From a bacterium BMS3Abin08 (GTDB lineage: Bacteria > Nitrospirota > Thermodesulfovibrionia > Thermodesulfovibrionales > JdFR-85), in NCBI GenBank assembly GCA_002897935.1, contig BDTA01000071.1:1-38733 (forward strand): a stretch of DNA of 38,733 bases, read 5' to 3'. Under the pieces are notes generated by a model. The model was given only the letters and a program-made list of their open reading frames with translations, had not been told where the DNA came from and did no database searches. The translations under genes were made by a program, and so were the position numbers. Shown in pieces: positions 23,575 to 27,368 of this stretch. The first letter of the stretch is position 1, and each line of letters begins with the position of its first letter.

Positions 23575-23695
23575 ATTGATATATAACTCAATCATGCTGA
23601 TATTGTCATTATAATTGATCTACGAATCAATTGGATAATTGACAAACAACTCAAATTAATCTATAATAAAGATAAAAATTGACAGAGGAGTTAAC
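23575..23695 (+). promoter_or_regulatory. hipBA-type promoter with repeated ATTGA-N8-TCAAT operators
   Basis: The promoter is TTGACA (23,639-23,644), 17 bp, TATAAT (23,662-23,667): perfect consensus in both boxes. The dyad ATTGA-N8-TCAAT occurs at 23,575-23,592 and 23,614-23,631 (both exact), and as ATTGA-N8-TCAAA at 23,638-23,655, overlapping the -35 box. A weaker half-site copy (ATTGA-N8-TTAAC, 23,678-23,695) covers the ribosome-binding site. The N8 spacing equals that known for E. coli HipB operators, although the arm sequence differs. Confidence 0.75.
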
Positions 23696-23698
23696 TAT

Positions 23699-23956
23699 AT
23701 GCAGGATGTGATTTCCGCCTTGCTTGATCAGATTATTCTTGAGGGGAAAAAGCAGGGCCTTGAACAGAAAGACATTGCCCGGAAGGCAGGGATATCACAG
23801 GAAACACTGTCCCGTGCAAAAAAGGCATCCGACATACAGCTTTCCACCCTTATCCGGCTGGCCAACGCCGTGGGGCTGAAAGTAGCCCTATCTCCAGCGG
23901 CCCCTGTTTTAGAGAAAATTCTCTCAGGAGATGTTCTCCGTGAAGACCGACCGTGA
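23699..23956 (+). CDS. HipB-like XRE-family antitoxin/repressor
   Basis: The 85-residue protein has a helix-turn-helix of the Cro/C1 type: GLEQKDIARKAGISQETLSRAKKASDIQLSTLIRLANAVGL, with the recognition helix around SQETLSRAKKA. Such proteins neutralise the HipA kinase and repress their own operon. GAGGAG lies 8 nt before the ATG. Upstream is an exceptionally good promoter with three or four copies of a dyad, as expected for autoregulation. The gene overlaps the kinase gene by 17-26 bp depending on the start chosen there. Confidence 0.88.
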   Translation: MQDVISALLDQIILEGKKQGLEQKDIARKAGISQETLSRAKKASDIQLSTLIRLANAVGLKVALSPAAPVLEKILSGDVLREDRP

Positions 23957-25298
23957 AGCGGTTGTCTGGACACGCATAGGGATGCGGCCGGTGAAGATGG
24001 GGCGCATCTATGTGACTGATTCCGGGTGTCGTTTTACATATAGCGAAGACTTCCTGAAGACCGGCCTGCCCGGTGTCGGGCTTCTGTATCCTCCGGAAAT
24101 CATTCAGCAGACGACTATAGTTCGTCCCCGAACTGAATTCTTTGATTTACCGCCCCCTATTCAATCGCTGATACCGCCAAAGGGCGAGAAGAATTTTCAA
24201 CGACAACTCATTCTTGCATACCTGGCCAAAAAAGGCATTGTCCCCTCGCGGGGCTTTGATGCGGATTGGGAGATCCTGATGATGGCGGGGCACGGTGGTA
24301 TAGGGCATCTGGATGTATTTAAAGACGATGAGAAGGCCATTGAGTGGTACTCTGTTCCAGCAAGGCACAGCCTTTTTGAGATTTCGGATAAGTTCGGCTT
24401 CTCCCTGAAGGAGTTCCTGTCCTGGTTTGACGGCGATGTCGAAGAATTTATTCAGATCATAGGGGCCACACCCACTGTGGGCGGCGCTATCCCGAAACTT
24501 CTGATGACGATCCCTGAGACCGGGTGGACCGGAGAGGTAGGGCTTCCAAGTAAAATCGGAGCCCACGGTGTTACGGATGTGATTTTGAAATTTGAGCAGA
24601 CAAGGAGCTACCCGGGCATTATCGAGCTGGAAGCCCAGGCCCTGGATATACACGAAGAAGCGGGTTTCGAGGTGCCGCGCAGGTGGAAAACCGTGATTAA
24701 TGATATCCCCACAATCGTGATCGAACGATTTGACCGTGACAGGAATTGCAATCCCGTGTTTACCGAGACATTATATTCCATATTCGCTTCAGGCGATCAG
24801 ACCATCACGACCCCTTACAGCACCACCTATGATGCAATCGGCCGTGCCATCGACCGTTCCCCCATTGATCTGGTTACGGACAAGAAGTCCGCCAAACAGC
24901 ATCTCCTGAAGCGGCTCCTGCTCGCCCTGACAACAGGCAACGGTGACATGCACCTTGAGAATCTCTCGATTATAAACAAGGAAAACACCCTTGCATTTTC
25001 GCCTGTCTACGACCCGACGCCCATGCGGGCTTACAGCATACACAACCTGTTGACCCCGATGCCGTTCGGACAATATGGAGAGGTCTTCCTTCCCGAAGCC
25101 CTTTTGCGGTTTACAAGAAACCTCGGTTTCAGGAAGAACTATCTGCTGGACCTGATAGATGAGGTCCTTACCGTTACAAAGGACTATGCGGATCGTATCC
25201 GGGCATTAAAAAATCTGCCGGATAAAAACAGGGAAAACCTGATCTCCATTGTAGAGTCGGTCAAGTCGGAACTCAGGGCCTGTTCAAAAATAACCTGA
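23931..25298 (+). CDS. HipA-like serine/threonine kinase toxin
   Basis: The protein has up to 455 residues with an N-terminal HipA domain (GRIYVTDSGCRFTYSEDFL) and a kinase C-lobe. The catalytic loop is GNGDMHLENLSI (about residues 336-347) and the metal-binding motif is SPVYDP. HipA proteins phosphorylate targets such as aminoacyl-tRNA synthetases and cause growth arrest. The loop aligned with the autophosphorylation site reads PTVGGAIPK, with Thr rather than the Ser of classical HipA. ATG 23,931 directly abuts AGGAG; GTG at 23,940 has better spacing and may be the true start. No truncation is seen, so the toxin is probably active. Confidence 0.87.
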   Translation: MFSVKTDREAVVWTRIGMRPVKMGRIYVTDSGCRFTYSEDFLKTGLPGVGLLYPPEIIQQTTIVRPRTEFFDLPPPIQSLIPPKGEKNFQRQLILAYLAKKGIVPSRGFDADWEILMMAGHGGIGHLDVFKDDEKAIEWYSVPARHSLFEISDKFGFSLKEFLSWFDGDVEEFIQIIGATPTVGGAIPKLLMTIPETGWTGEVGLPSKIGAHGVTDVILKFEQTRSYPGIIELEAQALDIHEEAGFEVPRRWKTVINDIPTIVIERFDRDRNCNPVFTETLYSIFASGDQTITTPYSTTYDAIGRAIDRSPIDLVTDKKSAKQHLLKRLLLALTTGNGDMHLENLSIINKENTLAFSPVYDPTPMRAYSIHNLLTPMPFGQYGEVFLPEALLRFTRNLGFRKNYLLDLIDEVLTVTKDYADRIRALKNLPDKNRENLISIVESVKSELRACSKIT

Positions 25299-26704: not shown

Positions 26705-26736
26705 AATAAAACGACAGGGTAGAGGAGGTGACAGCC

Positions 26737-26964
26737 ATGAGCAATCCAACAATCGAGCTAAGCAAGAAACAGGTAATAAATGTACTGGCTCAGTTTCCTC
26801 CCGAGGAATTGAAAGAAATCATTGACACGTTGCTTAAGCAAAAAGCCTTTGTACCACCATCACTTGAAGAAATCACGGAAGAGGCAAGTAGGATTGTACA
26901 ACGTGAAAGACTTGAGCCGGAAATTGTCGATGAAGCCATAAAATGGGCAAGGTCAAAAAAGTAG
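26737..26964 (+). CDS. Antitoxin of a PIN-type toxin-antitoxin pair
   Basis: The 75-residue protein from ATG 26,737 (MSNPTIELSKKQVINVL) follows GGAGG by 8 nt; a GTG nine bases earlier is inside the ribosome-binding site and is rejected. It is almost all helical and acidic, with LAQFPPEELKEIIDTLL and an end EAIKWARSKK. It has no classical ribbon-helix-helix or HTH motif that I can see, but the position just before and overlapping (22 bp) a PIN toxin gene is that of an antitoxin. It is probably autoregulated through the extended -10 promoter. Confidence 0.78.
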   Translation: MSNPTIELSKKQVINVLAQFPPEELKEIIDTLLKQKAFVPPSLEEITEEASRIVQRERLEPEIVDEAIKWARSKK

Positions 26965-27368
26965 TTATTGACACCAATGTCTTCATTTCAGGATTCGGTT
27001 GGGGCGGAAAACCGGATGCCTTATTAACACTTCTAAAAAACAATCAAATAGTCTGTTACTTCAGTCCTGAAATATTTGAAGAGTTGAAGCGAGTAGTATC
27101 TTATCCAAAGCTGAAGTTTACTGAGTCTTTACAAAACAAAATCCTTGAATTTGTATTCTTTAATTGCAAGCTTGTTGAACCGAAGGAACATATCACAGTT
27201 ATAGTGGACGACCCTGATGATAACAGGTTTTTAGAGTGTGCAGTAGAGGCAAATGCTGAATTTGTAATATCCGGCGATCCACATCTTCTCAGGATTGGAA
27301 AATACAAAACTGTCGAGATAGTAGATGTTGATAAATTCTTAGATATTTTTTCTATAGAAGGAGATTGA
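26943..27368 (+). CDS. PIN-domain toxin (COG1569-like)
   Basis: The 141-residue PIN-domain ribonuclease has the N-terminal acidic motif VIDTNVFISGF (Asp10), a second acid in FEELKRV, and the C-terminal cluster DDPDDNRFLECA plus VISGDPHLL, so the metal site appears complete. In this family such toxins cut RNA and are held in check by the gene upstream. The 22-bp overlap with the antitoxin gene implies coupled translation with the antitoxin made first. The product is full length and probably functional. The AT-rich gene has codon use unlike the housekeeping block, consistent with transfer. Confidence 0.88.
   Translation: MGKVKKVVIDTNVFISGFGWGGKPDALLTLLKNNQIVCYFSPEIFEELKRVVSYPKLKFTESLQNKILEFVFFNCKLVEPKEHITVIVDDPDDNRFLECAVEANAEFVISGDPHLLRIGKYKTVEIVDVDKFLDIFSIEGD

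Follow-up and report, generated by a model that had tools for sequence, protein, structure and literature searches.

HipBA is a classic model of bacterial persistence. To our knowledge, the HipB operators are known for few members only. E. coli K-12 hipBA carries the operators O1–O4, four dyads of an N8 spacer over the promoter upstream of hipB-hipA (PMC3376134). The initial annotation of the locus described here had named TATCC-N8-GGATA as the E. coli arms, and both the K-12 sequence and the published operators agree (PMC3376134). In Legionella pneumophila HipBST, HipB likewise binds several conserved inverted repeats that are upstream of the operon and overlap the promoter (PMC10653801), and C. 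crescentus has three sites before each of hipBA1 and hipBA2 (PMC8545095). That arms and layouts differ between HipB operators is already known from these E. coli, Legionella and C. crescentus systems.

The window here is the whole stretch of DNA that we analyzed, the 38,733-nt BMS3Abin08 contig BDTA01000071.1 on its forward strand. Its hipB gene (23699..23956, + strand) encodes an 85-aa Cro/C1-type HTH protein as the putative antitoxin and repressor (HTH_3 E 6e-8), and its hipA gene (23931..25298, + strand) encodes a 455-aa HipA-like Ser/Thr kinase as the putative toxin (HipA_C E 1.9e-23). The HTH gene is directly upstream of the kinase gene in one operon and overlaps it by 26 nt.

The AlphaFold model of HipB (mean pLDDT 84) has its recognition helix at residues 34–43, and the nearest solved folds are HipB of S. 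oneidensis, Legionella and E. coli, several with operator DNA, at best E-values of about 4e-3 for this small domain. The HipA model (pLDDT 81) matches the full-length HipA including the N-terminal subdomain over >460 columns (E 6e-14). Its top fold match is S. oneidensis HipA (4pu5), and the known HipA structures give TM of about 0.65–0.7 at about 15% identity. The kinase motifs GNGDxHxEN (Asp339, Asn344) and YDP (Asp361) and the residue Lys220 are invariant in 14 aligned sequences.

Because the HTH protein has the HipB fold, the kinase has the HipA motifs and the full-length HipA fold, and their genes overlap, the pair is a hipBA unit and belongs to neither hipBST nor HipH/YjjJ. Palindromic candidate HipB operators sit in the promoter, as hipBA membership requires, judged by the sites and their conservation. 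A sequence search ranks HipT structures first for the window HipA. The hipBST class was rejected on gene content, as there are two genes, a HipA of 455 aa with the N-terminal part fused and no separate hipS. HipH/YjjJ was rejected too, with hipB being separate and the YjjJ model matching 33 residues only, far under its cut-off.

No second hip system was found in the genome, where the HipA_C profile gives one match only. Neither a plasmid nor a phage origin was retained, since the plasmid matches are merely 30–35% and partial and phages are without a near match. About 1.4 kb downstream of hipA, the window holds a second probable toxin-antitoxin pair (26728-27368) of a 78-aa protein and a PIN_3-domain protein (PIN_3 E 5e-22).

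Four dyads are arrayed before hipB. Dyad 1, the distal one (ATTGATATATAACTCAAT, 23575..23592), and dyad 2 (ATTGATCTACGAATCAAT, 23614..23631) are exact ATTGA-N8-TCAAT copies and the only exact ones in the window. Dyad 3 (ATTGACAAACAACTCAAA, 23638..23655) has one mismatch, with the −35 box as its left arm. Dyad 4 (ATTGACAGAGGAGTTAAC, 23678..23695) has two mismatches and contains within its spacer the Shine-Dalgarno AGGAG (23686-23690), 8 nt before the hipB ATG at 23699. Their start-to-start spacings are 39, 24 and 40 bp. The promoter has an exact consensus −35 box TTGACA (23639..23644, + strand) and an exact consensus −10 box TATAAT (23662..23667, + strand) with a 17-bp spacer between them.

The initial annotation had described two exact dyads, one single-mismatch dyad on the −35 box, spacings of 24 and 39/40 bp and a fully consensus TTGACA-17-TATAAT promoter flanked by the dyads, and all of these are present as described. 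It had also called the fourth copy degraded. This copy over the ribosome-binding site does carry two mismatches, but it is a genuine site, intact in relatives such as L022 (TTGACAAAGGAGTCAA) and better preserved in L022, L006, L007, L008 and others than in the window.

We consider the four dyads to be, with a probability of about 0.88, the autoregulatory operator predicted for the window hipBA operon. We searched 220 bp around the start of hipB de novo for repeated dyads, allowing any 5-letter arm and a 4–12 spacer. ATTGA-N8-TCAAT came out for the window, and its score was reached in none of 60 dinucleotide shuffles. The four-site array occurs once in its 2.6-Mb genome. Seven further exact dyads are scattered there, each single and mostly within ORFs, so a HipB regulon was rejected. 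A lone exact dyad outside the listed ORFs, at 1935 of L070 (G000:C87:10900-13237), lies 3′ of a PIN-like gene pair at a distance of about 70 bp and is probably there by chance.

The array is conserved well beyond this genome. The HipA protein was searched in public genomes to collect 77 distinct loci, and a hipB is recognizable in 74 of these. The nearest kin of the window are Nitrospirota-type metagenome genomes of the same family or order and then gammaproteobacteria. Across the Nitrospirota loci, and in many of those from gammaproteobacteria, dyads 1 to 4 are at about −124, −85, −61 and −21 relative to the hipB start, making a grid of 39–40, 24–26 and 39–40 bp. The third dyad falls on the best −35 box in most four-dyad loci, and the fourth-dyad spacer contains the Shine-Dalgarno in the Nitrospirota group. 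Recurrence of the dyad in related hipBA loci was the check suggested in the initial annotation, and both do recur, the grid as well as the dyad, which is still present at about 36% HipA identity.

The grid is kept with other arms as well, in L043 (TTACC), L095 and L100 (TTATC), and L094 (TTAGC). More distant loci usually have one dyad pair about 50–51 bp apart, the second dyad extending as far as the hipB start codon or entering it. In L013 and L015, the second dyad enters the start codon (TCAATG), so the operator and the start codon share letters. The array is weak in L047, L061 and L063, and no clear one is left in L009, where it is broken by an insertion. This L009 insertion of about 190 bp (L009:2037-2330) carries inverted-repeat stretches between dyad 3 and hipB, and a dyad-4-like site (TTAACATAGGAGTCAA) is on its hipB side.

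The array may be viewed as two 39–40 bp pairs set 24–26 bp apart. Such strict spacing makes protein-protein contact across the sites likely, and from the site layout the cooperativity between the sites is likely, too. The same strictly spaced pairs would also suit genuine HipB operators that regulate through DNA looping between distant pairs, in line with the cooperative looping that the initial annotation had proposed, but we hold this to be improbable. The distances of 24 and 39–40 bp are short for DNA looping and far under those usual for loops, so looping in its usual sense is unlikely. Moreover, solved structures of the E. coli neighboring operators at 28 and 39 bp have HipB(A) complexes next to each other, according to the PDB titles for HipB-O1-O2 and HipA-HipB-O2-O3.

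The 39–40 bp pairs of the window match in distance the 39-bp O2-O3 pair that the HipA-HipB-O2-O3 structure contains by its title (5k98). The geometry thus fits bridging of neighboring HipB/HipA complexes better than looping. The 39–40 bp pairs are kept while the letters change, and this points to a conserved higher-order repressor assembly. Inter-operator spacings in the different HipB families cluster at 28–29, 39–40 and 50–51 bp, about one helical turn apart. Helical phasing is an idea only, because the spacings of 24–26, 31 and 34–35 bp do not fit.

The arm letters vary together with the HipB recognition helix. We called a general half-site TTxyz, 6 bp from its own reverse complement, from the DNA alone with no use of the protein. 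Mutual information was then taken between the letters x-y and 78 HipB alignment columns over 74 relatives, with down-weighting at 70% identity. The top-ranked columns are residues 35, 36 and 34 (corrected 1.22, 0.67 and 0.58 bits), which are the first of the predicted recognition helix. Shared ancestry affects all columns, so this ranking of helix residues ahead of nearly every other column is not expected from it alone. Gln34-Glu35-Thr36 are hence the predicted specificity residues of the window HipB.

Glu35 comes with GA, or TTGA/TCAA arms, in all 35 callable loci, and none of the 32 with non-Glu residues has GA. The Val35 helices (EVG, EVA and AVT) have mostly TTATC or TTAAA arms and Ser35 (DSS) mostly TTGTC arms, while Thr35 (PTR) goes with TTTCC and Gly35 or Asp35 (TGT, PDA) with TTGCG. 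The initial annotation had suggested a HipB with new arm specificity, and relative to E. coli this is supported by the comparison of sequences, as the arm letters track the recognition helix. One genome, G1138, holds two hipBA units, L101 with an NNK helix and TACCG arms and L108 with a DSS helix and TTGTC arms, which is what insulation of the two systems from cross-talk would predict.

The requirement for the outer TT miscalls L101 and L092 (TACCG arms) and L060. In a rerun without it, residue 35 is still first for letters 3–4 at two weighting thresholds and in the near and distant halves, and residues 36 and 34 drop to the third and sixth. With this freer operator call, residue 35 ranks first in all subsets tried, also among the loci of <50% HipA identity alone. 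Placed on a HipA tree with 74 rows, Glu35 and GA need a minimum of 6 changes each, the number on the best tree, and they change in the same direction in the independent pairs tested. Well-supported branches carry only 3 of the 6 coincident changes, so significance is out of reach for a tree-based sign test.

Many regulators can use inverted repeats that lie upstream of genes, and HipB binding to these dyads is a prediction from sequence, which leaves a slim chance that the dyads serve another, unlinked host regulator and HipB binds elsewhere. Against this, the arms recur upstream of hipBA in different phyla and vary with the recognition helix of the HipB encoded next to them. The genome carries the array at this one place only, and such uniqueness disfavors a global regulator. 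Slimmer still is the chance that the repeats act in mRNA, where dyad 4 would form a hairpin that has the Shine-Dalgarno as part of its loop and controls hipB translation. AGGAG is indeed flanked by the 5-bp arms, both in the window and in its nearest relatives, and 3 of 4 loci tested have this hairpin as their minimum-free-energy fold. We rejected it, as its −2.4 to −3.6 kcal/mol does not improve on that of shuffles (z +0.7 to +1.0), dyads 1 and 2 are upstream of the promoter and outside this transcript, and all sites change alike where the arms change.

In the autoregulatory operator, a HipB dimer, alone or with HipA, would occupy each 16–18 bp dyad, and the start of its recognition helix (Gln34-Glu35-Thr36) would read TTGA/TCAA in the major groove. 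At dyad 3, superimposed on the −35 box, it would block sigma70 region 4. At dyad 4, shortly after the transcription start, it would cover the DNA of the ribosome-binding site, and the upstream dyads 1 and 2 may stabilize the complex. By analogy, we infer HipB binding, repression and a HipA co-repressor role at the window operator from those of E. coli HipB and HipA (PMC3376134).

The −35 overlap suggests a further likeness. Sigma70 region 4.2 is likewise an HTH with a recognition-helix Glu and reads TTGACA, its Glu585 contacting the cytosine in the −33 G:C pair (PMC2613000; PMC10911233). Sigma70 is a sigma factor, whereas the window HipB is a predicted dimeric repressor. The pairwise HipB-RpoD alignment did not align their HTHs, and Pfam profile coordinates were used instead. 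Positions 18–42 of the Sigma70_r4 profile match HipB residues 18–42, weakly at E 0.019, and positions 5–50 match RpoD 551–600. By these two alignments, Glu35 and Glu585 are both at profile position 35, an equivalence that assumes the four extra RpoD residues to lie before the HTH.

Glu35 of HipB may then read the G:C of TTGA as sigma70 Glu585 does in the −35 box, and HipB and sigma would compete for the same letters at dyad 3. At its widest, a simple HipB recognition code can be proposed, and we see its chances as evenly balanced. The antitoxin would read the −35 hexamer (TTGAC) via a Glu585-like glutamate and so compete with sigma by the same chemistry, and lineages with another helix residue would have taken up different arms while keeping the grid, losing the −35 consensus.

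With about 70 loci where the operator letters and the three helix residues change together, HipB specificity becomes predictable and a single amino-acid swap suffices as the test. The covariation set also allows finding operators in new genomes and gives an indication of which hip systems within one genome can cross-talk. In the literature, which we covered partially, no paper joining HipB with recognition-helix specificity was found.

Compared with the known systems, the S. oneidensis HipBA-operator complex (4pu3, 4pu4) has the closest solved fold to the window HipB. The E. coli hipBA shares with the window the number of dyads, the N8 spacer and, at O2-O3, one spacing of 39 bp. However, the E. 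coli arms are TATCC/GGATA at 28/39/28 and those of the window are ATTGA/TCAAT at 39/24/40, E. coli HipB has Ala at the Glu35 position, and E. coli HipA is about 15% identical by structure alignment. The E. coli-type hipBA subgroup was rejected by the arms and spacings, and also by the HipB C-terminal W88, as the window HipB ends in LREDRP. Where E. coli has the C-terminal Trp, the family of the window HipB shares a C-terminal G-x-x-[FL], which may touch HipA.

Legionella HipBST has three sites of six-letter arms with 53-bp gaps and a separate hipS gene (PMC10653801), unlike the window. Beside these systems, what appears new is the TTGA/TCAA class with the 39/24/40 grid, its spread and the covariation between the HipB residues and the operator letters.
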